Positions 12,422 through 26,629 of a DNA stretch of 64,000 nt are shown here, piece after piece (within the stretch, counting starts at the first letter, position 1; each line of letters starts with the position of its first letter). The notes under the pieces are model-generated. The model was given only the letters and a program-made list of their open reading frames with translations, did no database searches and was not told the DNA's origin. Source of the stretch: Microcella flavibacter (GTDB lineage: Bacteria > Actinomycetota > Actinomycetes > Actinomycetales > Microbacteriaceae); NCBI RefSeq assembly GCF_012530535.1, contig NZ_CP051299.1, positions 1,488,001 to 1,552,000 on the forward strand. The letters run 5' to 3'. Position numbers and translations under genes: made by a program.

Positions 12422-13474
12422 ATGCGCGACACCCCCTTCCTCGTCGTCGACGTCGAGCTGCTCGAGCAGAACCTCGCCGGCATGGCGGCCCACGCCCGCC
12501 GGCTCGGCCTCGCCCTGCGGCCGCACGCGAAGACGCACAAGACCGTCGAGATCGCCCGCCGCCAGCTCGCGCACGGCGCGGTCGGGCTGACCGTCGCGAC
12601 GGTCGCCGAGGCCGAGATCTTCGCCGACCACGGCATCGACGACCTGTTCATCGCGTACCCGGTGTGGGCGGCGGGCCCGCGGGCCGAGCGCCTGCGCGCG
12701 CTCGCCGACCGGGTGCGGCTGCGCGTCGGGGTCGACTCGATCGAGGGGGTGCGGATGCTCGCCGCGAGCCGAGCGGTCGTGACGGTGGCCGTCGAGATCG
12801 ACAGCGGGCACGCGCGCAGCGGGGTCGCTCCGGCGGAGGCCGCCGCGGTCGCCTCGGTGGCGCTCGACGCCGGGCTCGGCGTGGACGGGGTGTTCACGTT
12901 CCCCGGGCACTCCTACGCTCCCGACCGGAGGGCGGCCGCGGCCGCCGACGAGCAGCGGGCGCTGCAGACCGCGCGCGACGGGATGCTCGCGCAGGGCATC
13001 CCGTGCCCCCTCGTCAGCGGGGGCTCGACGCCGAGCGTCGAGCACACGGCGCCGGGCCTGCTCACCGAGCTGCGCCCGGGGGTCTACCCGCTGCTCGACG
13101 CGCAGCAGTGGGAGCTCGGCTCCGCCGACCCCGGCCGCATCGCCCTCACCGCGCACGCCACGGTCGTGAGCCGGCGCGGGCGGCGCGTGATCGTCGATGC
13201 CGGCAACAAGGCGCTCGGCGCCGACCGGCTCGCCTTCGCGACCGGCTTCGGGCGCCTGCCCGACCACCCCGAGGCGCGCATCGTGGCGCTGTCGGAGCAC
13301 CACGCCACGATCGAGCTGCCCGAGACGGCGGCGGTGCCCGCGCTCGGCACGGTGCTGCGGTTGGCGCCGAACCACGTGTGCTCGGCCATGAACCTCGCCG
13401 ACCGGGTGGTGGCGGTGCACCCGGATGGGCGCGAGGAGGAGTGGGCGGTGGCGGCACGGGGCGCGAACACGTGA
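12422..13474 (+). CDS. PLP-dependent D-amino-acid deaminase/aldolase-like protein (alanine racemase fold)
   Basis: A 350-residue protein. RPHAKTHKTVEIARRQ near residue 35 carries the PLP-binding lysine in the HxKTHK pattern of D-threonine aldolase/D-serine dehydratase-like enzymes; GLTVATVAEAE follows. Near residue 200 is SGGSTPS (phosphate-binding), and ELRPGVYPLLD and NHVCSAMNLAD near the end carry the His and Cys that bind the metal in this family. It should deaminate or cleave a beta-hydroxy D-amino acid. No partner genes sit beside it. The gene is a single unit with a short leader. Confidence 0.85.
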   Translation: MRDTPFLVVDVELLEQNLAGMAAHARRLGLALRPHAKTHKTVEIARRQLAHGAVGLTVATVAEAEIFADHGIDDLFIAYPVWAAGPRAERLRALADRVRLRVGVDSIEGVRMLAASRAVVTVAVEIDSGHARSGVAPAEAAAVASVALDAGLGVDGVFTFPGHSYAPDRRAAAAADEQRALQTARDGMLAQGIPCPLVSGGSTPSVEHTAPGLLTELRPGVYPLLDAQQWELGSADPGRIALTAHATVVSRRGRRVIVDAGNKALGADRLAFATGFGRLPDHPEARIVALSEHHATIELPETAAVPALGTVLRLAPNHVCSAMNLADRVVAVHPDGREEEWAVAARGANT

Positions 13475-13565
13475 TGGCGGGCGGCGCGGAGCGCCGATGT
13501 CGGACGGCGCGAGGCTCGAGCCGCCCGGAGCGCGGTCGCCCTCGCGGCGCGCTCGGCGCGACCCG

Positions 13566-14444
13566 CTAGATGCGCGAGAGCCGCGCCCGGGCGAAGCCGT
13601 AGACGCCGTAGACGATGAGCCCGGCCCCGATGAGGCTGAGGATCACCGGGCCGAGGAACACCTCGCGCACGGCGGAGAAGGCGCCGTCGAGCCCCGTCAT
13701 GCCCTCGGCGTCGGCCTCGAGGGTCTCGACGATGATGAGGCCGGCGAGCAGCAGGAACGCGACCCCTCGGGCGACGTAGCCGATGAGCCCCGCGATGCGC
13801 ACGGCGCGGCCGCGCCGGGGCGGCAGGGGGCGCAGCTCCCACGAGAAGCGGCGCAGCACGCCCTTGACCACGAAGTAGCCGCCTGCGACGGCGACGCCGA
13901 GACCGACGAGCACGAGGACGACCGCGCCGAACGGCGTGCCGATGAGCATCGCGCTGAGCCGGCGGGCCGCGCCGCCCGACTGCAGCTCGCCGCCGAGCAG
14001 CAGGATGAGCGGCAGCACGGCGATCGCGAGGTACATGAGGCCCTGGGCCGCGCTCGACACGGCCGAGGTGGGGCGGTGCATGGGGCCCTGGTTGAGCACG
14101 GCGTCGGCGATCATCCAGACGCCGAGGCCCGCGAGCGAGATCGTGACCGCGGCGAGCAGCACGCCGCCGAGGGGCGGGGAGGCCAGGGCTTCGAAGGCGC
14201 CGACCTCGTCGGCGCGGACATCCCGATTGCCGACGGCGAGGGCGATGGCGAGCCCGCCGATGAGGAGGTGGAGCAGCCCGGTGACGGCCCAGCCGGAGCG
14301 GGCGAGGATCGTGAAGGGGCGGCTCTCGAGCGCGGTGCGCGCGGTGCCGGCCGAGCTCTCGATGGTGGGATCGAGCGGGGTGTCCGGGCCGAGCGCCTTC
14401 GCCGCGCGCGCGGCGGGGCGCAGCGGTTCGTCGGGAGCGGCCAT
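13566..14444 (-). CDS. DUF1206 domain membrane protein (copy 2)
   Basis: A 292-residue protein with six predicted transmembrane helices arranged as three two-helix repeats, each containing the pattern GLLHLLIGGLAIALA, GLMYLAIAVLPLIL or GYVARGVAFLLLAG followed by a Gly-rich helix. It ends with the conserved VYGFARARLSRI. The function of DUF1206 is unknown. It lies 27 bp downstream of a paralogue (14472-15317), with which it shares the layout and the C-terminal Y-FARARL motif, but it appears to have its own -10 box. Confidence 0.88.
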   Translation of the reverse strand: MAAPDEPLRPAARAAKALGPDTPLDPTIESSAGTARTALESRPFTILARSGWAVTGLLHLLIGGLAIALAVGNRDVRADEVGAFEALASPPLGGVLLAAVTISLAGLGVWMIADAVLNQGPMHRPTSAVSSAAQGLMYLAIAVLPLILLLGGELQSGGAARRLSAMLIGTPFGAVVLVLVGLGVAVAGGYFVVKGVLRRFSWELRPLPPRRGRAVRIAGLIGYVARGVAFLLLAGLIIVETLEADAEGMTGLDGAFSAVREVFLGPVILSLIGAGLIVYGVYGFARARLSRI

Positions 14445-14450
14445 CGGATC

Positions 14451-14456
14451 AGGCTA
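14451..14456 (-). promoter_or_regulatory. -10 element TAGCCT for the second DUF1206 gene
   Basis: On the minus strand TAGCCT is followed by 6 nt and the ATG at 14444, in the short gap between the two DUF1206 genes. It suggests independent leaderless transcription of copy 2. Confidence 0.45.
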
Positions 14457-14471
14457 CCGGCCGCGGCCGCC

Positions 14472-15317
14472 TCAGAGCCTCGCGAGGCGGGCGCGGGCGA
14501 AGCAGTAGACACCGTAGGCGATGAGGCCGCCGCCGACGATCGTGAGCAGCACGGTGCCGAACGGCAGAGCGGCGATCATGCGCAGAGCGTCATCGATGCC
14601 GCCCGCCTCGCTCGCGTCGGTGGAGATCGCGGCGGTGGCGAGCAGGCCGCCGACGGCCGCGAGGGCGACGCCCTTCGCGGTGTAGCCGGCGACGCCGAGC
14701 GCGGTGACGCCGCGGTCGAGCGGGGATCGGGGCAGGCGGATGTCGTCGAGGAACCGCCGCTTGACGCCCTTGACGACGAAGTAGCCGCCGATGCCGAGCA
14801 TGATCGCGGCGCCGGCGATGAGCACGAAGACGCCGCCGGGCGTCCGCAGCAGGAAGGCGCTGACCTCCTGCACGTCCTCGTCGGATTCGCTGGAGACGCC
14901 CATGAGCACGCTGACGACGGGGGCGCAGAGCGCGAGGTAGACGAGACCCTTGGCGAGGGTCACCCCGGTCTTGAGCCACCGCTTGTCGGGTGTCGGACGG
15001 GGTCGGTTCTCGAGGAACGCCTCGACGACGAGCCAGAGCCCCAGGGCGAGCAGGCCCACCAGCACGACGTAGAGCACGAGCACGCCGCCGGGGCTCTCGG
15101 CGATGCTGCGCAGCGCCCCGCCCTGGTCGGCGTCGTCGCCGCCGGTGGTGCCGTGCGCGATGGCGAGCGCGAGCGCGCCGATGAGGATGTGGAGCAGCCC
15201 GTTGACGGCGAAGCCGCCGCGAGCGGCGAGGCGGAACGCGGGATGCTCGTGCACCGCGGTGACGGCGTCCTCCGCGCGGTCGCTCTTGCTGGGGGATGCC
15301 GTGCCGCCGTCTGCCAT
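14472..15317 (-). CDS. DUF1206 domain membrane protein (copy 1)
   Basis: A 281-residue paralogue of the following gene: an N-terminal charged region, then GGFAVNGLLHILIGALALAIAHG, GLVYLALCAPVVSVLMG and GYTAKGVALAAVGGLL as the leading helices of three repeats, ending VYCFARARLARL. ATG 15317 is preferred over an upstream in-frame ATG because TACCGT lies 6 nt before it. Function unknown; the pair most likely arose by tandem duplication. Confidence 0.88.
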   Translation of the reverse strand: MADGGTASPSKSDRAEDAVTAVHEHPAFRLAARGGFAVNGLLHILIGALALAIAHGTTGGDDADQGGALRSIAESPGGVLVLYVVLVGLLALGLWLVVEAFLENRPRPTPDKRWLKTGVTLAKGLVYLALCAPVVSVLMGVSSESDEDVQEVSAFLLRTPGGVFVLIAGAAIMLGIGGYFVVKGVKRRFLDDIRLPRSPLDRGVTALGVAGYTAKGVALAAVGGLLATAAISTDASEAGGIDDALRMIAALPFGTVLLTIVGGGLIAYGVYCFARARLARL

Positions 15318-15323
15318 GGGCTC

Positions 15324-15329
15324 ACGGTA
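15324..15329 (-). promoter_or_regulatory. -10 element TACCGT for the first DUF1206 gene
   Basis: On the minus strand TACCGT ends 6 nt before the ATG at 15317, matching the leaderless pattern seen elsewhere in the window. Confidence 0.4.
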
Positions 15330-15419
15330 CCGCGGCACGAGGCCGCTGCGGCACGCTCATCGGGGGAGTGCCGCGTCGCGGCCGGCGCGCTCCGCGCGTC
15401 GTGGCTCACCGGTCGCGGG

Positions 15420-18400
15420 TCACCGGAAGTCCCGGCTCGGCATCGTCGCCGTGAGCGGCAGGGCCTCCACCCTGTCGGCGACGATGTTGATGACGCCCTC
15501 CGCCGAGCGCTCGAGGGTGCCGCGCACGATGAGGGCCTTCGCCTCGCGCACGACGCGGCGGTAGCGGCCCCAGAGGCCGACGCTGCAGATGACGTTGACG
15601 AGCCCGGTCTCGTCCTCGAGGTTGATGAAGGTGATGCCGCTCGCCGTGGCGGGGCGCTGCCGGTGGGTGACGACCCCGGCGACCTCGACGCGGCGGCCGG
15701 GCTCGGCGGTGCGCAGCGCGCGGGCGCTGAGCACGCCGCGCCGGCCGAGCGCCGGGCGGGCGTAGCGCACGGGGTGGTCGCCGGGGGCGATGCCCGTCGA
15801 CACGAGGTTGGCGACCATCGTCTCGCCGTCGTCGAGGTCGGTGAACAGCGGCGGCTGCACGGCGACGACGCTGCCCGGCAGGTACTCGGGGCGGGCCTGG
15901 GCCGCGGCGCCCGCGGCCCAGAGGGCTTCGCGCCGGGTGAGGCCGAGCACGTCGAAGGCGCCGGCGGTGGCGAGGGCCTCGACCTGCGCGGCGGTGAGCC
16001 CGGTGCGGTACACGAGCTCGGTGAGGTCGCGGTACGGGCCGCCGCGCTCGCGCTCGGCGACGATGCGCTCGGCGGTGGGGCGGCCGATGCCGGTCACCGC
16101 TCCGAGGCCGAGCCGCACGGCCAGGTCGCCGTCGCGGCGGTGGGCGGCGCAGTCGTCGGCGGTGCCCCCGGGGCCCGCGGCGTCGAACTCGGGCACGGGC
16201 GGCTGCCGGCGGTGGAGGCACTGCTCGCGCCCGGTCGCGGCGGCGCGCCGGGCATCCACCGGGATGGGCGCCCACGCGTCGTCGACGACGAGGTCGACCC
16301 TCTCCATGCCGGCCTCGACGCCGGAGCGCAGGATGCACGGGGTGCGCACCTCGACGCCGTGCCGCTCGGCGTCGGCGGTGAGGCTCGCGGGGGAGTAGAA
16401 GCCCATGGGCTGGGCGCGCAGCAGCGAGGCGAGGAAGATGCCGGGGTGGTGCAGCTTGATCCACGAGCTGGCGTAGACGAGCAGGCCGAAGCTGAGGGAG
16501 TGGCTCTCGGCGAAGCCGAAGTTGGCGAAGGCCTGGATGCGGCCGTAGATCTCGTCGGCGAGGCGCCCGGTGATGCCGTTGCCCGCCATGCCGGCGTAGA
16601 GGGTCTCGCGCAGCGACTCGATGCGCTCGAGGCCGCGCTTGCTGCCCATGGCGCGGCGCAGCAGGTCGGCGTCGTCGCCCGTGCAGCCGCCAACGGCCAT
16701 AGCGATCTGCATGAGCTGCTCCTGGAAGACGGGCACGCCGAGCGTGCGCTCGAGCGGCTCGACGAGTTTCGGGTGGTCGTAGACGATGGGCTCCTCGCCG
16801 AGCTTGCGGCGCACGAAGGGGTGCACGGCGCCGCCCTGGATAGGGCCGGGGCGCACGAGGGCGATCTGCACGACGAGGTCGTAGAACTTGCGCGGCTGCA
16901 GGCGCGGCAGCAGGCCCATCTGCGCCCGGCTCTCGACCTGGAACACGCCGATCGAGTCGGCGCGGCAGAGCATGTCGTAGACGGCCTGCTCCTCCTTCGG
17001 CAGGGTCGCGAGCTCCCAGTCCTCGTCGAGGTGCTCGCGCATGAGGTCGAAGGCGTACTGCAGGGCGGCGAGCATGCCGAGTCCGAGCAGGTCGAACTTG
17101 ACGAGGCCCATCCAGGCGCAGTCGTCCTTGTCCCACTGCAGAACCGTGCGCCCCTCCATGCGGGCGTGCTCGATGGGCACGATCTCGCCGACGGGCCGAT
17201 CGGTGAGCACCATGCCGCCGGAGTGGATGCCGAGGTGCCGCGGGTAGGTGAGCACCTGCTGGGCGAGGGCGACGACGGGGGCGGGGATGTCGTGGTCGTC
17301 GCTCGAGAGCACGGCGCCCCAGCGCTCGACCTGCTTCGACCAGGCGTCCTGCTGGCCCGTCGAGTGCCCGAGCGCGCGCGCCATGTCTCGGACGGCGTTC
17401 TTGGGGCGGTAGCTGATGACGTTGGCGACCTGGGCGGCGTTGCGGCGGCCGTACTTCGTAAAGACGTACTGGATGACCTCCTCGCGCCGGTCGGAGTCGA
17501 AGTCGACGTCGATGTCGGGCTCCTCGTCGCGCAGCGCGGAGAGGAACCGCTCGAAGGGCAGCTTGTAGGCGATGGAATCGACGGCGGTGATGTCGAGCAG
17601 GTAGCAGACGGCCGAGTTCGCGGCCGAGCCGCGGCCCTGGCAGAGGATGCCGCGGGAGCGGGCGAACTGCACGATGTCGTGCACGATGAGGAAGTAGCCG
17701 GGGAAGTCCTTCTGCTCGATGACGTCGAGCTCGCGGCCGATGCGGGCGCGGTCGGCCTCGGTGGCCTCGGGGTAGCGGCGCGGCACGGCCGCCCAGACGA
17801 GGTGCCGCAGCCAGCTCATCGGGGTGTGCCCCTCGGGCACCCGCTGCCTGGGCAGCGCGGGCTTCGCCTGCCGCAGCGGGAACCCGAGCTGCTGCGCGAG
17901 CTCGACGCTGCACTCGACGGCCCCGGGGTGGCGGGCGAAGCGCTCGGCCATCTCGGTGCCGCTGCGCAGGTGGGCGGTACCGGCGGGCGGCAGCCAGCCC
18001 TCCATCTCGTCGAGGCTTCGGCGGGCGCGCAGCGCGGCGAAGGCGCTCGCGAGGGGGTGCCGGGCGGGGGAGGCGTAGTGCACGGCGCCCGTGGCGACGA
18101 TCGGCAGGCCGCGCTCGCGGGCGAGGGCGGCGAGCACGTCGTTGTGCACGGTGTCGAGGGGGCGGCCGTGGTCGATGAGCTCGACGACGACGGAGTCCGC
18201 TCCGAACCGGTCGACGAGGGCGTCGAGCGCGCGGCCGGCGGCATCGCGCGCCGCCCGGGTCGGCAGCGCGGCATCGCCGAGGGCGGCGCGCACGGCGCCC
18301 TTGCGGCATCCGGTGAGGATGACCCACTCGCCCCGCCCGCTGTCGGCCAGATCGTCGAGCCGGTACACCGGGCGCCCCTTCTCGCCGCCGGCGAGCTGCC

Positions 18401-18896
18401 CCTCGGTGAGGGCGGCCGCGAGCCGGTGGTAGCCCGACTGCCCCCGGGCCAGCACGAGCAGGTGCGTGCCCTCGGGGTCGGCGACGCCCTGCTGCGGGCC
18501 GGTGAGGTCGAGGCTCAGCTCGGCGCCGAAGACGGTGGTGAGCCCGTGCGCCTCGGCCGCCTCGGCGAGCCGAACGACGCCGTAGAGGCCGTCGTGGTCG
18601 GTGAGGGCGAGCCCGGTGAGGCCGAGCCGCGCGGCCTCCTCCAAGAGCTCCTCGGGGCTCGAGGCCCCGTCGAGGAACGAGAACGAGGAGTGCGCGTGCA
18701 GCTCGGCGTAGGGGACGAGCTGATCGTCATCGGGCCGCTCGATCGCGGCGGGCTGGTAGGGCGCGCGCTTGGCCGACCAGGCGGGGGAGTCGCCGCCGTC
18801 GGCCCCGGGCGGCGGGGCCGTGCCGGGGCGGGTGCCGTCGCGCAGGGCGCGCTCGAACTCGCTCCACGGGATGGGCGGGTTGTGCCAGCCGGCCAT
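15420..18896 (-). CDS. dnaE2: Error-prone DNA polymerase III alpha subunit DnaE2 (ImuC)
   Basis: An 1158-residue C-family polymerase. The PHP domain begins at AELHAHSSFSFLDGASSP (near residue 50). The palm catalytic acids are in EEPDIDVDFDSDRREE (near residue 455). The finger region contains RPGPIQGGAVHPFVRRK, followed by QEQLMQIAMAVGG, HhH (VTGIGRPTAERI) and a C-terminal OB fold (VEVAGVVTHRQRPATASG). Size and motifs fit DnaE2, the catalytic subunit of the SOS mutasome. It is the last gene of imuA-imuB-dnaE2, 30 bp after imuB, so it should be induced by DNA damage through the LexA box at 21380. Confidence 0.95.
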   Translation of the reverse strand: MAGWHNPPIPWSEFERALRDGTRPGTAPPPGADGGDSPAWSAKRAPYQPAAIERPDDDQLVPYAELHAHSSFSFLDGASSPEELLEEAARLGLTGLALTDHDGLYGVVRLAEAAEAHGLTTVFGAELSLDLTGPQQGVADPEGTHLLVLARGQSGYHRLAAALTEGQLAGGEKGRPVYRLDDLADSGRGEWVILTGCRKGAVRAALGDAALPTRAARDAAGRALDALVDRFGADSVVVELIDHGRPLDTVHNDVLAALARERGLPIVATGAVHYASPARHPLASAFAALRARRSLDEMEGWLPPAGTAHLRSGTEMAERFARHPGAVECSVELAQQLGFPLRQAKPALPRQRVPEGHTPMSWLRHLVWAAVPRRYPEATEADRARIGRELDVIEQKDFPGYFLIVHDIVQFARSRGILCQGRGSAANSAVCYLLDITAVDSIAYKLPFERFLSALRDEEPDIDVDFDSDRREEVIQYVFTKYGRRNAAQVANVISYRPKNAVRDMARALGHSTGQQDAWSKQVERWGAVLSSDDHDIPAPVVALAQQVLTYPRHLGIHSGGMVLTDRPVGEIVPIEHARMEGRTVLQWDKDDCAWMGLVKFDLLGLGMLAALQYAFDLMREHLDEDWELATLPKEEQAVYDMLCRADSIGVFQVESRAQMGLLPRLQPRKFYDLVVQIALVRPGPIQGGAVHPFVRRKLGEEPIVYDHPKLVEPLERTLGVPVFQEQLMQIAMAVGGCTGDDADLLRRAMGSKRGLERIESLRETLYAGMAGNGITGRLADEIYGRIQAFANFGFAESHSLSFGLLVYASSWIKLHHPGIFLASLLRAQPMGFYSPASLTADAERHGVEVRTPCILRSGVEAGMERVDLVVDDAWAPIPVDARRAAATGREQCLHRRQPPVPEFDAAGPGGTADDCAAHRRDGDLAVRLGLGAVTGIGRPTAERIVAERERGGPYRDLTELVYRTGLTAAQVEALATAGAFDVLGLTRREALWAAGAAAQARPEYLPGSVVAVQPPLFTDLDDGETMVANLVSTGIAPGDHPVRYARPALGRRGVLSARALRTAEPGRRVEVAGVVTHRQRPATASGITFINLEDETGLVNVICSVGLWGRYRRVVREAKALIVRGTLERSAEGVINIVADRVEALPLTATMPSRDFR

Positions 18897-18926
18897 CAGC
18901 GCACCGCCCCGCTCGTCGCTGCGCGC

Positions 18927-20540
18927 TCAGTCATACTTCGCCTCCGCCCACCAGCTCGTGCCCTCGAGCACGAGCAGCCAGGCGATGCCGGCGGCGTCGA
19001 CGACCTGCAGCCGGTGCGCGCGGCGGGCGCGCGCCGGATCCCACCAGCGCTCGTCGAGCGGCCAGGGCCCCGCCCAGGATCCGATGGGGCGCACCGCCCC
19101 GCCGGCGCTGGGGGAGAAGCCCGCGGGCGGCGCGCTGAGCCGCAGGCGCTCGTCGACCGTGACGACCTCGCCCCGGGCATCCAGCACGGTGACGGGGTGG
19201 CGCGAGGGGTAGACGGTCGCGGGGGCGGGCTGCGGCAGCGCCCCGGGCCACGGCCGGTCGACGGGGCGGGCGAGCACGGCGCGGTCGCCCCAGGGCACGA
19301 GCACCCGCCGCTCGGCGGGGGTGCGCCCGCCCGAGCGCTGCGGGGTGAGCACGGCCTCGTGCCCGAGCAGGCTCTGCACGCGCGAGAGGGCGTGGTGCAC
19401 GCGCTCGTCGGGCCCGGAGCCCCAGAGCCCCGGCTCGTGGTGGGCGAGGGCGTCGAGGCTCTCGGGCACGATGCGTACGCGCGTGATGGGGGCGCGCAGG
19501 TCGGGCAGTCCCGGGCCCATCGCGCCGCCGCCCGGCCCCGGCGCACCGCCGCCGCCCGCACCACCGGGCCGCGCCCCGAGCACGCGCGTCGCCCCGCTGA
19601 GCTGCCAGCGCACGCGGTCGACGATCTCGCTCGGCCGGAACGAGCGCGGGTGCAGCCAGGCGCGCTCCTGCTCGCCGCCGAGCTCGTCGCGGAACCCGAT
19701 GCGGATCGCGGTGGCGACGAGCCGGTGCCCGGCGAGGGTCTCGACGACCTCGTCGGCGAGCCGGCGCACGGCGAAGGCGACCTGGTCGACCCGGTCGAGG
19801 GGAGGCTCGAACTCGATGACGCGCTCGAGGTCGAGCGGCGGGATGCGCGGCACGAGCAGGCTCGCATCGTGAGCCGAGGCGAGCGCGTGCCGGTGGGCCC
19901 CCCGCTCGCCGAACCGCGCGCGCACGGCCTCGTCGGGCAGGGCGGCGAACTCGCCGAGGGTGCGGATGCCGAGCCGGCGCAGCAGGGTGGCGAGCTCGGG
20001 GTCGTCGAGCACGGTGACGGGGTGGGCGGCGAGGAACGCCGCCGAGGCGCCGGCCGGCACGATGCGCACGGGGGCGTCGGCGGGGGCATCCCGCGCGGCG
20101 AGGTCGGCGGTGAAGGCGCCGTCGGCGATGCCGATGCGCGCGTCGGTCACCCCATCCTCGATGAGAGCGGCGCGCAGCGCGAGCGCGGCCGCCCGCTCGC
20201 CGCCGTAGTAGCGGGAGGGCCCGCGGGCGCCGATCACGACGAGCCCGGGCCGCACGACCTGCACCCCGGCGACGAGCCCCTCGAGGGCGTCCACGAGCGG
20301 GCCGAAGACCCGGTGGTCGCGGTCGTCGTCGTGCGGCACGACGGTGAGCGCCGGGGCGAGCGACTGCGCCTCGCGGCGTCGCATGCCCCGCCGCACGCCC
20401 TGCGCCCGGGCCGCGGCCGAGCAGGCAACGACGCGGTTGGCGCTCACGACGGCGAGCACGGCGCCGGGCTTCGCCTGCCCGTCGCGCACGACGGCGAGCA
20501 CCGGCCAGTCGGGCACCCAGAGGCAGAGCGCGCGCAGCAT
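18927..20540 (-). CDS. imuB: ImuB-like Y-family DNA polymerase homologue
   Basis: A 537-residue protein. The N-terminus ALCLWVPDWPVLAVV lacks the metal-binding Asp pattern of active Y-family polymerases, as expected for ImuB. Further on, ANRVVACSAAARAQGVRRGMRRREAQ is the finger region, and LRRLGIRTLGEFAALPDEAVRARFG is an HhH. An unusual Gly/Pro-rich stretch (ARPGGAGGGGAPGPGGG) interrupts the C-terminal half. ImuB is a catalytically inactive hub that links ImuA, DnaE2 and the beta clamp. Its ATG shares one base with the imuA stop (TGATG), indicating translational coupling. Confidence 0.92.
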   Translation of the reverse strand: MLRALCLWVPDWPVLAVVRDGQAKPGAVLAVVSANRVVACSAAARAQGVRRGMRRREAQSLAPALTVVPHDDDRDHRVFGPLVDALEGLVAGVQVVRPGLVVIGARGPSRYYGGERAAALALRAALIEDGVTDARIGIADGAFTADLAARDAPADAPVRIVPAGASAAFLAAHPVTVLDDPELATLLRRLGIRTLGEFAALPDEAVRARFGERGAHRHALASAHDASLLVPRIPPLDLERVIEFEPPLDRVDQVAFAVRRLADEVVETLAGHRLVATAIRIGFRDELGGEQERAWLHPRSFRPSEIVDRVRWQLSGATRVLGARPGGAGGGGAPGPGGGAMGPGLPDLRAPITRVRIVPESLDALAHHEPGLWGSGPDERVHHALSRVQSLLGHEAVLTPQRSGGRTPAERRVLVPWGDRAVLARPVDRPWPGALPQPAPATVYPSRHPVTVLDARGEVVTVDERLRLSAPPAGFSPSAGGAVRPIGSWAGPWPLDERWWDPARARRAHRLQVVDAAGIAWLLVLEGTSWWAEAKYD

Positions 20541-21369
20541 CAGCCGACCTCGCGCCAGCGCTGCTCGGCGCGGACGGCGGCGGGCCGGGTGCGCCCCGCG
20601 CCGAGCGGCGGGTCGAGCCGACGGATGCCCTGCTCGGGGTCGGGCATGAGCAGCCGCCCGCTCGCGGGCCGCCCCGAGCGCCTGCTCGTCACCGTGAGGG
20701 TCACCTCGCGACTGGTCAGGTAGCCGGAGCCCGCTCCGAGCCCCGACCACCGGCTCTCGGTGAGGCTGATCATCGCCTCGGTCTGCGGCCAGGCGCCGAG
20801 CACGAGCAGGGTCGAGCCGCGCTCGCGCAGCCGGCCGGCGAGCTTCGCCACCGCGCCGTCGCTGGCCGCCCGCCCGGGCTTGACGACGATGACGCCGAGC
20901 GCATCCGCGATGGAGGCCGTGACGGTGAGCCACTGGTCGCCGGGGTGCGGCACGAGCACGAGCCGGTCGAGGTCGATGCCCATGGCCTCGGCGGCCTCGA
21001 TGCCGAACTCGGGCATGCCGACGACGCCGCACCACGAGCCCGCGGCGGAGGGGCCGGCGAGCAGCGCCATGATGAGCGCGCTGGAGCCGCTGACAGAGTA
21101 GGCGGCGCCCTCCTTCAGCCCGCCGTCGGGCAGCAGGTCGGCGAGCGCCTCGTGCGTCGGCTTCAGCCGGGTATCGAGGGTCGTGCGCTGCAGCGAGTCG
21201 ATGCGGGCCTGCAGCGCCTGCACGGTGTCGACCGTCTGCAGCCGCGCCCCGCTCGGCGCTGCGGCGAGCGCCGCCGACCCCGAGCCCGACCCGGAACCGG
21301 AGACCGAGCCCGCACGCACCCCGGAGGCCGCGTCGAGCGACGCGGCAGGGGAGAGGGCGAGAGCCGGCA
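20540..21369 (-). CDS. imuA: ImuA-like RecA-fold mutasome protein
   Basis: A 276-residue protein in the imuA' position. An Ala/Ser/Gly-rich N-terminus with repeated SGSGSGSG is followed by a RecA-like domain: LKPTHEALADLLPDGGLKEGAAYSVSG with ALIMALLAGPSAAG, then DLDRLVLVPHPGDQWL and VIVVKPGRAA. The Walker A site is not canonical, as in actinobacterial ImuA'. ATG 21369 is chosen because -10 and -35 elements around the SOS box place the transcript start at this codon; an upstream ATG at 21418 would put the LexA box inside the coding region. Confidence 0.88.
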
Positions 21370-21404: not shown

Positions 21405-21594
21405 ACTGCCACCGACATTCGACGGCGTGTCGACGATCAGGGCGGGATGCTCGGCGCGTCTCGTTCACCGCCCCGTGTCCGTCCTGCACGGCGAATCGGG
21501 CGACACGCCGAGCGACGGGTCCTCTTCCGACGCGTCCGCTAGAAGTCCGCGCGAGACGGACACCCTGCGGCGGCCGGCTCCGCGACCCCGGCCT

Positions 21595-22494
21595 CTACAG
21601 CCCGAGCTCCTCGACCCGCGCCCGCAGGAACGCCGCCCCCGCGTGATCGTGCACGAGCTCGCCGAGCACGATCACCTCGTACTCGCGCTCGAGCACGCCG
21701 TCGGCGGGCCGCACGTCGACGTGGGCGACATCCAGACCGACGGCGTGCACGTGGTCGGCCATGAGGTAGTCCGAGCGCGAGTCGCCGACCGAGTACCAGC
21801 GGCGAGCGCCGACCCCGTGCGCCGAGAACCACTGCAGGGCCCGTTCGGCCCCGCGATCCTTGTCGAGGCGCACCGACTCGATGTCGGTCGAGATGATCGT
21901 CGGATCGATGCGGAACGGCACGGCGCCCGAGGCGTCGGGCAGCGAGCGGGAGCCGTACCGGATCCCCACCCCGAGCGAGCCGAGCAGCGAGTACGCCGCC
22001 GCCTGGAACGCCGTCTGGGCGGTGCGGTACACCTCGGCCGGGGCATCCACCCGCTGCTCGAGCGAGACCATGACGCGCTTGCCCTCGTCGACGAACATCG
22101 CGTGCCCGTAGTGCTCGCGCGCGAGCTGCTCGACGGCCGACCGCGCAGCAGCAGGCAGCGCGACGCTCTCGTCGATCTCGAGCGCGCCGAGCCCCGCGGG
22201 CGTGATGGGCGCCCACACCCCGCCCTTCTCGAACACCCCGAACACCAGAGCATCGGAGCGCAGACCCGAGGTCACGAGCCGCGACACCACCTGCGAGCGC
22301 ATGAACTCGTCGCTGCGCCCGGTGATGAACGCGATCGGGATGCCGGCGTGCGCGAGCGTCAGCAGATCCTCGACGATCGAGGGGATCGCGATGGTGCGCG
22401 ACTCGGGGCTCGCGATGGGCCCGTCCACGTCGAGCAGCAGCCCGAACGGGGCGATGATGTCTGCATGACCCGACTGAGCACCCTGACCCGTCAC
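21595..22494 (-). CDS. HAD superfamily phosphatase-like protein
   Basis: A 299-residue protein. The first HAD motif is LLLDVDGPIAS near residue 18 (DxD), the second TGRSDEF near 52, and the late acidic motif VGDSRSDYLMADH near 240. The large insertion between them is a type IIB-like cap. The family hydrolyses phosphate esters, and the layout resembles sugar-phosphate phosphatases, but the substrate is not known. The GTG at 22494 is the best start seen. It overlaps the 5' end of the divergent DUF2834 gene by 30 bp, so one of the two starts may lie further in. Confidence 0.75.
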   Translation of the reverse strand: MTGQGAQSGHADIIAPFGLLLDVDGPIASPESRTIAIPSIVEDLLTLAHAGIPIAFITGRSDEFMRSQVVSRLVTSGLRSDALVFGVFEKGGVWAPITPAGLGALEIDESVALPAAARSAVEQLAREHYGHAMFVDEGKRVMVSLEQRVDAPAEVYRTAQTAFQAAAYSLLGSLGVGIRYGSRSLPDASGAVPFRIDPTIISTDIESVRLDKDRGAERALQWFSAHGVGARRWYSVGDSRSDYLMADHVHAVGLDVAHVDVRPADGVLEREYEVIVLGELVHDHAGAAFLRARVEELGL

Positions 22495-22836
22495 TGGACT
22501 CCTCGCGCCATCGTGTTCCTCGTTCTCGCGGTGATCGGCCTCGTCGGCACCTGGACGTACAACGTCATCGCCATCATCGAGCGCAACGACTTCCTGGGCG
22601 ACTGGTTCAATAATGGCCCGGCCGTCGGATCCCTCACGACCGACCTGCTGATCATGGCCGTCACGGGCTGCGCCTTCATCGTCATCGAGGGCCGGCGCCT
22701 CGGCATGAGGCACCTGTGGGCGTACATCGCCTTCTCCGGCCTGACAGCGATCGCCTTCACCTTCCCGCTGTTCCTGGCGAACCGCGAGCGGGCGATCCAG
22801 CAGCGGGCCGAGAGCATGGCACCCTCGGTGGAATGA
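22465..22836 (+). CDS. DUF2834 domain membrane protein
   Basis: A 123-residue protein with three predicted membrane helices (AIVFLVLAVIGLVGTWTYNV, DLLIMAVTGCAFIVIEGRRLGM, YIAFSGLTAIAFTFPLFLANRER). The TWTYN, SLTTDLL and EGRRLGM signatures are those of DUF2834, whose function is unknown. Its stop overlaps the next start (ATGA), so it is coupled to the Pr6Pr gene. Its start overlaps the divergent HAD gene. Confidence 0.82.
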   Translation: MTRLSTLTRHWTPRAIVFLVLAVIGLVGTWTYNVIAIIERNDFLGDWFNNGPAVGSLTTDLLIMAVTGCAFIVIEGRRLGMRHLWAYIAFSGLTAIAFTFPLFLANRERAIQQRAESMAPSVE

Positions 22837-23609
22837 GTCTCCGATCCGACGCGGCCGTCCTGGCGCGCCGTCGGATCTTCGGGGTGCTGCGCCTGCTCGC
22901 GGCCGTCACGGGCGTGATCGCCCTCGTCGCGCGCTTCGACTACGGCCTCGGCTTCAGCGCCTTCGCCTCGGCGAACTTCTTCGCGTACCTCACCGTGCAG
23001 AGCAACATGGTGGCGGTGGTCGCGAACACCGCCTGCGGCATCGTGGCCCTGCGGCGCGCATCCGACCCCTGGTGGATGCCCGGCCTGCGCCTCGCCGTCA
23101 CCAGCTTCCTCCTCGTCGCCGGCATCGTGTTCGCCATCCTCGCCGCGCAGGCCTCCGAGCGCGGCTACCGGCTCGACGTGCCGTGGAGCGACCAGATCCT
23201 GCACTACTGGCTGCCGGCGTACCTGCTGCTCGACTGGCTCTTCGCCCCGGGGGAGCGCCGGGTGAGCTGGCGCATCCTCGCCGTCGTCGTCGGCTACCCG
23301 ATCGGCTGGGGCGTCGTCACCCTCATCCGCGGGCCGCTCGTCGGCTGGTACCCGTACTTCTTCCTCGACCCGGCGCAGGTGAGCGGCTTCGGCGAGTTCG
23401 CGCTGCTCAGCCTCGCCGCGCTGGCGCTCTTCGCCCTCATCGCCTCGCTGCTCATCCTCGAGGGCCGGTTCCACCCGCTGCGGCGCCTCGAATCGGCGAT
23501 CGGGATGCTGCGCCTCAGTCGCGCAGGAACGGCTCCAGCGCCGCGACCACCGCGTCGGTGGCCTGCTCGTCGCCGAGCCCCGCGAACCGCCGGGCCTCCG
23601 CCCCGCTGA
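22833..23609 (+). CDS. Pr6Pr family membrane protein
   Basis: A 258-residue protein with six hydrophobic segments: VLRLLAAVTGVIALVAR, FFAYLTVQSNMVAVVANTACG, LRLAVTSFLLVAGIVFAILAA, ILHYWLPAYLLLDWLFAP, ILAVVVGYPIGWGVVTLI and LLSLAALALFALIASLLIL. The LTVQSN and LHYWLP-LLDW patterns identify the Pr6Pr/FAR-17a-like family of unknown function. The last 35 residues are Arg/Pro/Ala-rich and overlap the 3' end of the opposing amine oxidase gene by 95 bp, so the tail may be unselected read-through. Confidence 0.85.
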   Translation: MSLRSDAAVLARRRIFGVLRLLAAVTGVIALVARFDYGLGFSAFASANFFAYLTVQSNMVAVVANTACGIVALRRASDPWWMPGLRLAVTSFLLVAGIVFAILAAQASERGYRLDVPWSDQILHYWLPAYLLLDWLFAPGERRVSWRILAVVVGYPIGWGVVTLIRGPLVGWYPYFFLDPAQVSGFGEFALLSLAALALFALIASLLILEGRFHPLRRLESAIGMLRLSRAGTAPAPRPPRRWPARRRAPRTAGPPPR

Positions 23610-24915
23610 GCAGCCCCACGAGCACGGCGTCGCCCGTCACGGGCTGGAGGTTGACCCAGGTGCGGATGTCGGGGCCGCCGTCGGTCGGCACGAGGCTCCA
23701 GGTCTCGGCGCGCTCCGTCCAGACCGCCTCGGCGTAGCGCACCCACACGGTCTCGAGGTACCCGACCCCGAGCGCGGCGATGCCCCGGCGGTTGACGAGC
23801 GGCAGCTCGGGCTCGAAGGTGATGCCGCCCGACTGCAGCACGCCCAGCGGCACGGTCATGACGGCGCGGTCGACGGTGAGCGACTCGCCCGCCCCGAGGC
23901 GCAGGCTCAGCGAGCCCTCGTCGCGCTGCACGGTGGTGACCGCGCTCGACTGCAGCACGTCGATGCCGTCGAGCAGCGAGTCGACGTAGCGCGCGAGCCC
24001 GCCGATCGAGAGCAGCCGGTCGCCGCTCGGCAGCTCGTCGAGCGCGTAGCGGGTGGAGATGCGGCGGGCCTCTGCGCCCGTGGCGATGCCGAGCCCGTCC
24101 GTGTAGAGCCCGACGGCGGCGCGCGGGCTGGGCGCGCTCGGCGCGGGGGCCTCGTCGGGGAGCGCGCCGAGCAGGGCGATCGCGCCGCTCACGGGGAGGT
24201 CGAAGGCGACGGTCTCGGCCGTGGCGGCGACGGAGGCGTCGATCGCGACGACCGCTTCCTCCACGAGGGCCGCGTCGAGCTGCTGCTCGGCCGTGCGCAC
24301 GCTCGTGCGCCGCAGCGGCGCGGTCTCGACCCCGGCCTCCTCGAGGGCGGCGAGCAGCACGTCGTCGCGCCCCTCGCGCAGCCACAGCGCGCCGAGCTCG
24401 TCGGGCTGCTGGTCGTCGCCGTCGATCGTGCGGATGCGGCCGCCGACGCGCTCGCGCGCCTCGATGAGCAGCACCTCGAAGCCGGCGTCGCGGATGCGCC
24501 GGGCGGCGATCGCCCCGGCGAGCCCCGCGCCGACGACGGCGATGCGCTCGCCCTCCGCCGCGACGGCGAGCAGCTCCTCCGCGGCGCGCTCGCCGCTCTC
24601 GCGCGCGCCCTCGAGGCTGCTGGGGGCCGTGCGCGAGGTCGCCTCGCCGGCGAAGAAGAGGCGGTCGTCGACGGGGGCGGCGAGGTCGTCGCGCCGGTCG
24701 GGCGTCTCGCCGACGGGGATGAAGCTCGTCGCGCCCTGCGCGAAGCCGTCCCGCGTCCAGTCGCTGCGGCGGATCGAGAGCGGCCGCAGCGGATCGACGG
24801 GGGGAGGGGTGGTGGCGGTCGGCGCGGGCCGCGGCGGATCCGGCGTGCACGCGGCGAGCGCCAGCACCGAGACGCCGGCGGCACCGGCGAGGAGGCTGCG
24901 TCGCGTCACGGTCAT
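23515..24915 (-). CDS. Flavin amine oxidase-like lipoprotein, apparently circularly permuted
   Basis: A 466-residue protein. The N-terminus MTVTRRSLLAG with the lipobox LAAC (Cys23) is a Tat-type lipoprotein signal. Next, residues 50-115 resemble the end of ordinary monoamine oxidases: SDWTRDGFAQGATSF, then RLFFAGEATS (85-94) and LEGARESGERAAEE. Only then does the FAD-binding start appear: RIAVVGAGLAGAIAARR (124-140) and the Rossmann acidic end IEARERVGGRIRT. The chain finishes at VAALEPFLRD, just where normal enzymes would continue into the RW-GSY-FAGE block. All parts needed for FAD binding are present in permuted order. It probably oxidises an amine outside the membrane; the substrate is unknown. 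A -10 TAGGGT lies 8 nt before the ATG. Confidence 0.85.
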   Translation of the reverse strand: MTVTRRSLLAGAAGVSVLALAACTPDPPRPAPTATTPPPVDPLRPLSIRRSDWTRDGFAQGATSFIPVGETPDRRDDLAAPVDDRLFFAGEATSRTAPSSLEGARESGERAAEELLAVAAEGERIAVVGAGLAGAIAARRIRDAGFEVLLIEARERVGGRIRTIDGDDQQPDELGALWLREGRDDVLLAALEEAGVETAPLRRTSVRTAEQQLDAALVEEAVVAIDASVAATAETVAFDLPVSGAIALLGALPDEAPAPSAPSPRAAVGLYTDGLGIATGAEARRISTRYALDELPSGDRLLSIGGLARYVDSLLDGIDVLQSSAVTTVQRDEGSLSLRLGAGESLTVDRAVMTVPLGVLQSGGITFEPELPLVNRRGIAALGVGYLETVWVRYAEAVWTERAETWSLVPTDGGPDIRTWVNLQPVTGDAVLVGLLSGAEARRFAGLGDEQATDAVVAALEPFLRD

Positions 24916-25030: not shown

Positions 25031-25116
25031 ACCTGACGGATCAGGCCTGTCTCAACCAGGTCGTAAACCGGGTCTCACGGTCGAGCGGAGTCGAGCTCCA
25101 TCCGACCGGACCAGCG

Positions 25117-25201
25117 TGCGCGAGGGGGGACTTGAACCCCCACGCCCTATCCGGGCACTAGCACCTCAAGCTAGCGCGTCTGCCATTTCCGCCACCCGCG
25201 C
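25117..25201 (-). tRNA. tRNA-Leu (anticodon GAG)
   Basis: An 85 nt class II tRNA. The acceptor arm is GCGCGGG paired with CTCGCGC (one G-U) and discriminator A. The D-arm is GGCAGACGCGC-type. The anticodon stem is CTAGC/GCTAG with loop TTGAGGT, giving GAG (reads CUC/CUU). A long variable arm follows (TGCCCGGATAGGGCG), then T-loop GGTTCAAGTCC. CCA is not encoded directly after the discriminator. The variable arm, A73 and the GGTGGCGGAA-GGCAGACGC start are typical of tRNA-Leu. Confidence 0.96.
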
Positions 25202-25290: not shown

Positions 25291-25296
25291 TAGCGT
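25291..25296 (+). promoter_or_regulatory. -10 element TAGCGT of the M20 peptidase gene
   Basis: TAGCGT followed by 7 nt and ATG 25304; leaderless arrangement that fixes the start. Confidence 0.45.
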
Positions 25297-25303
25297 GGTC
25301 GTC

Positions 25304-26629
25304 ATGGCAGGCGACGAGCTCCACGACACCGCCCGGATCGCGCGCGATCTCATCCGCTTCGACACGAGCAACTACGGCGAGGGGCGCAGCAACGGCGAGA
25401 CCGAGGCGGCCGAGTACGTCGGCGCGCTGCTCACCGGGATGGGGCTCGAACCCGAGTTCATCGACGCCGCACCGGGGCGCACGAGCGTGATCGCCCGCGT
25501 CGACGGCTCGTACGAGCATCCCGTCGACACCGCCCGCGGCGAGCGTCCCGCGCTCGTCGTGCACGGCCACCTCGACGTCGTGCCCGCCGACCCCGCGAAC
25601 TGGTCGGTCGACCCCTTCGCCGGCGAGATCCGCGACGGGATGCTGTGGGGCCGCGGCGCCGTCGACATGAAGAACATGGACGCGATGATCCTCACCGCGC
25701 TCGGCGAGATCCTCGGCTCGGGGGCGCGGCCGAACCGCGACCTCGTCGTGGCGTTCTTCTCCGACGAGGAGAACGGCGGCGTCTACGGCTCGCACCACCT
25801 CGTGCACCACCGCCCCGAGCACTTCGCCGGTGCGACGGAGGCCATCAGCGAGGTCGGCGGCTACTCGGTCGAGATCGGCGGCAAGCGCGCCTACCTGCTG
25901 CAGACGGGCGAGAAGGCCCTCGTCTGGATCCGCCTGCGCACCCGCGGCACGGCGGCCCACGGATCGCGCGTCATCCACGACAACGCGGTCACGAAGCTCG
26001 CCGAGGCGATCGCGCTCATCGGGCGGCGCGAGTGGCCGCTGCACCTCACCGGCACGACCGAGCGGCTGCTGGGCGAGATCGCCCGGCTGCTCGGCGTCGA
26101 CCCCGAGCGCACCGGGCCCGACGAGCTCATGCTGCGCTCCGGCACCGCCGCGGGGTTCCTCACGGCGACCCTGCGCACGACGAGCAACCCGACGCTGCTG
26201 CAGGCCGGGTACAAGCACAACGTCATCCCCGACACGGCCGAGGCGCTCGTCGACATCCGCACCCTGCCTGGGGAGGAGGACGCCGTGCTCGCCGAGGTGC
26301 GGGCGATGCTGCCCGACGACGTCGAGATCGAGGTCGTCGTGCGAGATGTGGGCCTCGAGAACCCCTTCGAGGGGCCGCTCGTCGAGGCCATGGTCGCCAC
26401 CCTGCAGCGGCACGACCCCGAGGCGCAGGTGCTGCCCTACCTGCTCAGCGGCGGCACCGACAACAAGGCGCTCAGCGAGCTCGGCATCACCGGCTACGGC
26501 TTCGCCCCGCTCAAGCTCACGCCCGACCTCGACTTCCCCGCCATGTTCCACGGGGTCGACGAGCGCGTGCCGCTCTCGGCGCTCGAGTTCGGCCACGCCG
26601 CGCTCACCGACCTGCTGCGCCGCTACTAG
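25304..26629 (+). CDS. M20/M25/M40 family metallopeptidase (dipeptidase/deacylase-like)
   Basis: A 441-residue zinc hydrolase. The metal-binding motifs are VVHGHLDVVP (near residue 85), GRGAVDMKNMDA (near 116, bridging Asp), FFSDEENGG (near 150, catalytic Glu-Glu) and a final His in MFHGVDERV (near 418). The dimerisation domain lies between about 200 and 320. It should cleave a peptide or N-acyl amino acid in the cytoplasm; the substrate is not predictable. It is followed by uppP 9 bp later, whose -10 box overlaps this stop codon. Confidence 0.92.
   Translation: MAGDELHDTARIARDLIRFDTSNYGEGRSNGETEAAEYVGALLTGMGLEPEFIDAAPGRTSVIARVDGSYEHPVDTARGERPALVVHGHLDVVPADPANWSVDPFAGEIRDGMLWGRGAVDMKNMDAMILTALGEILGSGARPNRDLVVAFFSDEENGGVYGSHHLVHHRPEHFAGATEAISEVGGYSVEIGGKRAYLLQTGEKALVWIRLRTRGTAAHGSRVIHDNAVTKLAEAIALIGRREWPLHLTGTTERLLGEIARLLGVDPERTGPDELMLRSGTAAGFLTATLRTTSNPTLLQAGYKHNVIPDTAEALVDIRTLPGEEDAVLAEVRAMLPDDVEIEVVVRDVGLENPFEGPLVEAMVATLQRHDPEAQVLPYLLSGGTDNKALSELGITGYGFAPLKLTPDLDFPAMFHGVDERVPLSALEFGHAALTDLLRRY

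Follow-up and report, generated by a model that had tools for sequence, protein, structure and literature searches.

Can a protein of the flavin amine-oxidase type begin with the segment that normally ends it? The question is raised by a gene of Microcella flavibacter, which lies on the reverse strand of a 64,000-nucleotide stretch of contig NZ_CP051299.1 (positions 1,488,001 to 1,552,000), called the window here. From its N-terminus, the predicted protein consists of a lipoprotein signal of the twin-arginine translocation (Tat) type, a linker, the block with which the family normally ends (the C block), the block that starts the binding of flavin adenine dinucleotide (FAD; the N block), and the rest of the domain, including the M block. 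This order is written C-N-M, and the normal order N-M-C. Comparison with related sequences confirms the gene product as a circular permutation of a flavin amine-oxidase-type protein. The parts of the gene are as follows.

23515..24915, minus strand: permuted flavin amine-oxidase-like lipoprotein gene, 466 amino acids, stop codon at 23515-23517 (from translation, Pfam and PDB-sequence matches)
24850..24915, minus strand: Tat-type lipoprotein signal peptide, residues 1-22 (TRRSLL...LALAA; from the sequence and a 26-protein alignment)
24847..24849, minus strand: lipobox cysteine Cys23, invariant in the 26 aligned permuted proteins
24784..24846, minus strand: Pro/Thr-rich linker, residues 24-44 (from the alignment; start of the structural model, lower confidence)
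24562..24783, minus strand: transposed C block, residues 45-118 (W53, G61, FAGEAT 88-93, GARESGERAAEE), the segment with which the family usually ends
24547..24561, minus strand: new junction of old C-terminus and old N-terminus, residues 119-123 (from the alignment and the loci read)
24301..24546, minus strand: N block, residues 124-205, FAD-binding Rossmann start GAGLAG...EARERVGGR (PF13450, 2.9e-12)
24025..24300, minus strand: variable middle region, residues 206-297, poorly conserved in the alignment
23518..24024, minus strand: M block, residues 298-466, ending where the C block normally starts

When PDB sequences are searched with phmmer, three separate stretches of the query match human LSD2 (4gu0, 776 residues), in an order that differs from that of the LSD2 chain. 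Query residues 119-161 match LSD2 residues 333-375, residues 297-462 match 523-693, and residues 51-116 match 709-774, which is the C-terminal end of the 776-residue chain. The Pfam family PF01593 also splits into three stretches on the window protein, with a score of 167.1 bits against a curated cut-off of 19.8. On a normal-order protein from the same genus (L014), it matches in one stretch, covering profile positions 1-443 of 443. A preliminary description of this DNA had placed the C-terminal block ahead of the FAD-binding start, and the order of the LSD2 stretches bears this out. The chain also ends where that description put its end, at the point where the C block normally begins: the stop follows directly after ...ALEPFLRD, and no second C block was found at the 3' end.

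If the sequence is rotated, with residues 124-466 followed by 43-123, the alignments proposed in the same description score higher. The Pfam score rises from 167.1 to 181.5 bits and the number of stretches falls from three to two, while the LSD2 score rises from 90.5 to 100.8 bits. Against LSD2, the M and C parts merge into one match of 79.1 bits, compared with 39.1 and 26.1 bits separately; the N part remains a stretch of its own in both rotated searches. Both exchanged segments are homologous to one parent, each is present once, and the arrangement is conserved across independent genomes. No tandem repeats were found between window positions 22500 and 26000.

How widespread is this order? 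A search of other genomes, which had also been suggested, found it in many. Among 60 genomes, 12 (the window's own included) match along all or nearly all of the protein, the match in G008 being cut at residue 399. Genome contigs were also scanned with short peptide seeds, and the permuted order was found in 15 of the best 80 of 87 loci. These come from Cryobacterium, Microbacterium, Frigoribacterium, a Microbacteriaceae bacterium and one Acidimicrobiia metagenome-assembled genome (MAG; L047). The remaining loci of the scan with N and C blocks on one frame all have the normal order. A profile built from 26 permuted proteins (A1) matches 134 of 398 sampled Microbacteriaceae genomes at E <= 3.2e-88. 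All of these matches begin at model position 1-3, except for one (G405) that begins at 83; weaker matches, among the matches listed, start at 109-130 and have E >= 8.3e-68.

Searches outside the Microbacteriaceae used an E cut-off of 1e-40 or 1e-45, which may have hidden permuted genes with weaker scores. In a phylum sample of 396 genomes, permuted genes turned up in G524, G621, G751, G576, G595 and G775 (the last with a short or broken frame), and in an order sample of 297 genomes in G986, G912, G845 and G911. Further ones came from two classes: from that of G524 (247 genomes) those of G1224, G1234 (interrupted by a single TAG), G1231 (truncated where the contig starts), G1267 and G1265, and from that of G595 (66 genomes) the gene of G1389. 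The permuted form is common in Microbacteriaceae and rarer in other Actinomycetota. It was found only in Actinomycetota, but other phyla were reached by the short-peptide contig scan and a plasmid search alone, so that absence there is weakly tested. Only 7 of 72,556 plasmid records match, none of them over 80% of the query.

Blocks were also scanned in the open reading frames (ORFs) of 202 loci, some of which repeat one gene. This gave 81 ORFs with the order C-N-M, two with C-N-M-M, two with C-N and 101 with N-M-C. The break falls in a loop, after the last helix of the M block and before the strand that leads to an invariant Trp. In 22 permuted loci, the junction of the old termini spans 3-10 residues between block edges. 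By eye, no remnant is visible beyond the stop of L147.

An unusual gene order can also result from an assembly error, from a frameshift, or from two adjacent amine-oxidase genes that have fused and are decaying. Permutation by duplication would itself go through such a stage. In a Dongia MAG (L103:1906-4462), one normal-order amine-oxidase gene follows another directly, head to tail, an arrangement of the kind from which a permutant could arise. Two permuted genes appear broken: that of L194 (G405) looks frameshifted, and that of L168 (G1234) has a single internal TAG stop. However, the order, the break and the kind of signal are identical in many genomes from separate assemblies, which makes chance or assembly error very unlikely. 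The frame is open in the window's own genome, which is assembled in one contig, and purifying selection is strongest on the moved block. Measured against an 80%-identical relative (L003), the ratio of nonsynonymous to synonymous rates (dN/dS) is 0.39 overall, 0.23 in the N block and 0.08 in the moved C block. An assembly error or pseudogene was rejected on the grounds of conservation in many genomes, the open frame and selection on the moved block, and the chance that any such accident explains the gene is vanishingly small. In the same comparison, the synonymous rate of the M block (23518-24024, minus strand) is 0.14, compared with 0.87 in the region preceding it.

Is the permuted chain expected to form the usual fold? 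AlphaFold2 with an alignment predicts one confident fold for the window protein (predicted local distance difference test, pLDDT, 92; predicted TM-score, pTM, 0.90). The C block is placed in this model at pLDDT 88-98. Over model residues 99-444, structure comparison in chain order identifies the predicted fold as that of flavin amine oxidoreductases, with a TM-score of 0.69 to LSD2 and 0.63 to 1b37. Alternatively, the N-terminal C block of one chain might complete the site of a second chain by a domain swap. This is very improbable given the pTM of 0.90 for the monomer and the short gap in the model, where the last helix of the block (79-96) and strand 102-106 are only 5 residues apart.

The start of the protein, MTVTRRSLLAGAAGVSVLALAAC, fits a Tat lipoprotein by eye. 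The signal that had been noticed at Cys23 is supported: the twin arginine (RR), the hydrophobic stretch and the lipobox Cys are all present, and R5, R6, G11 and C23 are invariant across the 26 aligned permuted proteins. The same description had suggested a purpose, namely that the permutation is an adaptation that freed the N-terminus for a membrane anchor. In a scripted search, an RR-lipobox signal was found in 66 of 74 distinct permuted ORFs but in only 14 of 101 normal-order ORFs. The spacing from the Cys to the block is 14-31 residues in 64 of the 66 and 8 and 39 residues in the other two. Both observations would suit such an adaptation, but most of the 66 permuted lipoproteins come from one clade, so that the counts are not independent by descent.

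Moreover, lipoproteins of this kind also occur in the normal order. Normal-order Tat lipoproteins are encoded in five genomes of the same genus (L014-L018), and thus no anchoring advantage is needed. The same test finds further ones in L048, L110, L151-L153, L172, L174, L178 and L201. Conversely, the permuted proteins of L182-L186 have no recognisable signal. The suggested purpose finds no support in these cases and is quite unlikely.

The other permuted ORFs without a scripted signal include L169, which is cut at the contig start, and L194, which has no N-terminus in frame (both among the eight signal-negative ones). RR and TMAC are visible by eye in L047, outside the scripted 66, and L168, outside the 74, has RR and by eye no Cys. 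The oxidases of L183-L186 come from two other families of the same order and, lacking a recognisable signal, are probably cytoplasmic. In L182:862-2901, a GNAT acetyltransferase domain (Acetyltransf_1, 2.6e-08, residues 74-182) precedes the permuted amine oxidase. Among 25 other genomes of the same genus, permuted genes (8 of 25) and normal-order lipoprotein genes (5 of 25) never occur together, which is not significant (about 0.12, a rough estimate by hand).

What might the exported protein work with? A candidate lies next to it.

22833..23609, plus strand: gene of a Pr6Pr family membrane protein (NF038065, 5.7e-34), convergent with the oxidase gene

In the window, this open frame and the 3' end of the oxidase gene have 95 bases in common. 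The main Microbacteriaceae clade is represented by 54 distinct permuted loci. A convergent Pr6Pr gene follows downstream in 53 of them; at the 54th, the contig ends 2 bases past the oxidase. The end of the Pr6Pr match lies -2 to 283 bases from the oxidase stop in 45 loci and 714-755 bases from it in 8. At normal-order loci, no Pr6Pr match was found within flanks of about 1-3 kb (0 of 93). The permuted oxidase of the main clade is probably functionally linked to the adjoining Pr6Pr protein. No Pfam family matches the Pr6Pr protein above the cut-off, and a full-text literature search for the word Pr6Pr found no paper.

Combining these lines, we consider it highly probable that the protein is a natural circular permutant that is exported by Tat, lipidated and held as a flavoprotein on the outer face of the membrane, with a link to Pr6Pr in the main clade. 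The ancestor would have been a normal-order gene, probably one that already encoded a Tat lipoprotein. Tandem duplication, fusion and trimming would have turned a surface loop before the ..RW.. strand into the new end, with the old termini joined by about 3-10 residues. The protein would fold around FAD in the cytoplasm, cross the membrane folded via Tat and be lipidated at Cys23 after export. Held by a Pro/Thr-rich tether at the outer face of the membrane, it would then catalyse a flavin-dependent reaction as an oxidase or dehydrogenase, probably coupled in the main Microbacteriaceae clade to the adjacent Pr6Pr membrane protein. Its substrate may be something other than a classical amine.

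Several observations weigh against this picture. The model predicted from the single sequence has a pLDDT of 36.9. The comparison with VIA barely tests the parts outside model residues 98-444, and since both Foldseek and VIA compare structures in chain order, the placement of the C block rests on the confidence of the model. The dN/dS against L003 reaches 0.75 in the M block, whose synonymous rate is oddly low, and 1.9 in the signal of 23 codons, which has few changes. No ORF with a C block at both ends, the expected duplicated intermediate, was found in the 202 loci. Within flanks of about 1-3 kb, Pr6Pr was not found at any of the 17 permuted loci outside the main clade, although L187-L190, four of these loci, belong to the same family, Microbacteriaceae. 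Finally, two active-site positions are altered. These are the position of the catalytic Lys in polyamine oxidase and LSD1, which is Asn in the window protein and Lys in only 4 of 54 main-clade proteins, and Tyr398 of monoamine oxidase (MAO) B, which is Thr in the window protein and Tyr in only 4 of 54. With both positions changed, the protein may be catalytically altered or have a role that does not involve amines.

The main-clade protein could accordingly be a changed flavoprotein, a redox carrier or binding protein that works with Pr6Pr and is not an amine oxidase. Each of the two residues is missing from 50 of the 54 proteins, and the Pr6Pr neighbour is nearly constant. Set against this, the tested FAD-binding positions are kept in 54 of 54, and normal-order relatives do without the Lys at times as well (21 of 35 in the actinobacterial set). 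Such a change of role is conceivable, and we regard it as somewhat improbable. The window protein itself has GxGxxG, the acidic residue after beta2 and RxGGR. In the FAGEAT-type block of the main clade, G and E are present in 54 of 54 proteins and T in 43 of 54; the Lys position is occupied by His in 31, Asn in 8 and Gln in 5. Outside the main clade, the Tyr398 position of permuted rows is Trp in L183-L186 (4 of 4) and Tyr in all the rest (13 of 13). By implication, the permutation left the aromatic residue in place, and the main clade would have lost it later.

Did the permutation happen once or several times? Trees were built on rotated sequences. ORFs with short blocks and over-long rows were dropped, which left 71 permuted and 93 normal-order rows. 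On the FastTree tree of these 164 rows, the permuted label needs 7 changes. A more careful tree of 73 of the 164 rows needs 6, and its 200 bootstrap trees need 5-7. A third tree has 55 rows: compared with the 73, nine permuted rows (including the long-branched L170 and L182) and eleven normal-order rows were left out, and L168 and L169 were added. This tree needs 5 changes, with 4-5 in the bootstrap trees. In neither data set does any of the 200 bootstrap trees unite the permuted rows in one clade. The strongly supported (starred) branches alone force 1 change in each of the three trees.

A single ancient permutation, passed on by descent and by transfer, would explain this if the scattered positions in the trees were error. 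In the lineages inspected by eye, the break falls in the same loop, and a common break point argues for a single origin, as does the one change forced by the strongly supported branches. Joining the core clade with single lineages is mostly not rejected (p 0.17 with L183-L186, 0.18 with L168 and L169, 0.09 with L147 and L157). On the other side, holding all permuted rows in one clade gives p 0.044 (31 rows) and 0.016 (24 rows), and joining the core with L047 and L167 gives p 0.0496. For L047, L167, L168 and L169 held together, p is 0.063. The groups tested were named after the first tree had been seen, which weakens all of these p values.

The bootstrap trees also speak against a single origin, and so does the similarity of the N-M part, scored with at most 2 rows per lineage. 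L168 and L169 score 270 and 259 bits against normal-order L171, compared with 237 and 213 against the best other permuted lineage. L182 scores 142 bits against a normal-order row and 111 against a permuted one. L144 and L145 score 249 and 218 bits against permuted Microbacteriaceae rows and 189 and 188 against normal-order rows; in the remaining lineages, normal and permuted scores differ by at most 18 bits, in either direction. A single origin has a chance only a little short of even. The sequences speak rather for more than one origin, without proving it. The most far-reaching version, in which the fold was permuted several times in Actinomycetota at the same surface loop and in Microbacteriaceae joined Pr6Pr in a conserved extracytoplasmic module of two genes, with a redox chemistry other than classical amine oxidation, is unlikely as a whole.

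The members of the PF01593 family, for instance LSD1 and LSD2, maize polyamine oxidase (1b37), MAO-A and MAO-B, and putrescine oxidase, have the blocks and FAD motifs in common with the window protein. The latter differs in having its C block of about 74 residues at the N-terminus and in its exported-lipoprotein signal, and the permuted main clade in the two changed active-site positions. The normal-order proteins of L014-L018 likewise have a Tat signal with a lipobox, and L014 a PF01593 match. They are 32-34% identical to the window protein over the best stretch, have the order N-M-C and, unlike the window protein, no Pr6Pr match at their loci.

Natural circular permutants of other folds include swaposin, concanavalin A, which is permuted after translation, and DNA methyltransferases. 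In these, two segments are likewise exchanged and the fold is kept; none of them is known to be a flavin amine oxidase. No natural circular permutant of the flavin amine-oxidase family was evident from the titles and opening lines of abstracts in the literature searched. Profile annotation hides such proteins, because they are displayed merely as split amine-oxidase matches.

A much-studied fold, that of MAO, LSD1 and polyamine oxidase, appears to tolerate another chain order and to use it naturally. For protein engineering, this supplies a natural starting point from which to place new chain ends close to the FAD site. Should the permutation have arisen repeatedly, this would mark the loop as a place where evolution prefers to cut the chain. 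The pairing with Pr6Pr gives a first handle on that family of membrane proteins.

Of the other neighbours in the window, those of the M20 peptidase and HAD-like types were found beside the permuted gene only in loci of its own genus; the M20 peptidase gene lies at 25295-26629 on the plus strand. A tRNA-Leu (gag) gene at 25116-25201 on the minus strand is present in all 8 permuted loci of the genus that were scanned for it. A DUF2834 match (1.1e-20) at 22513-22791 on the plus strand, within the ORF 21427-22836, lies a short way upstream of the Pr6Pr gene. Farther away, a 2432-codon open frame at 13425-20723 on the plus strand, partly opposite a long frame at 18927-21035 on the other strand, is taken for a putative by-product of high G+C.
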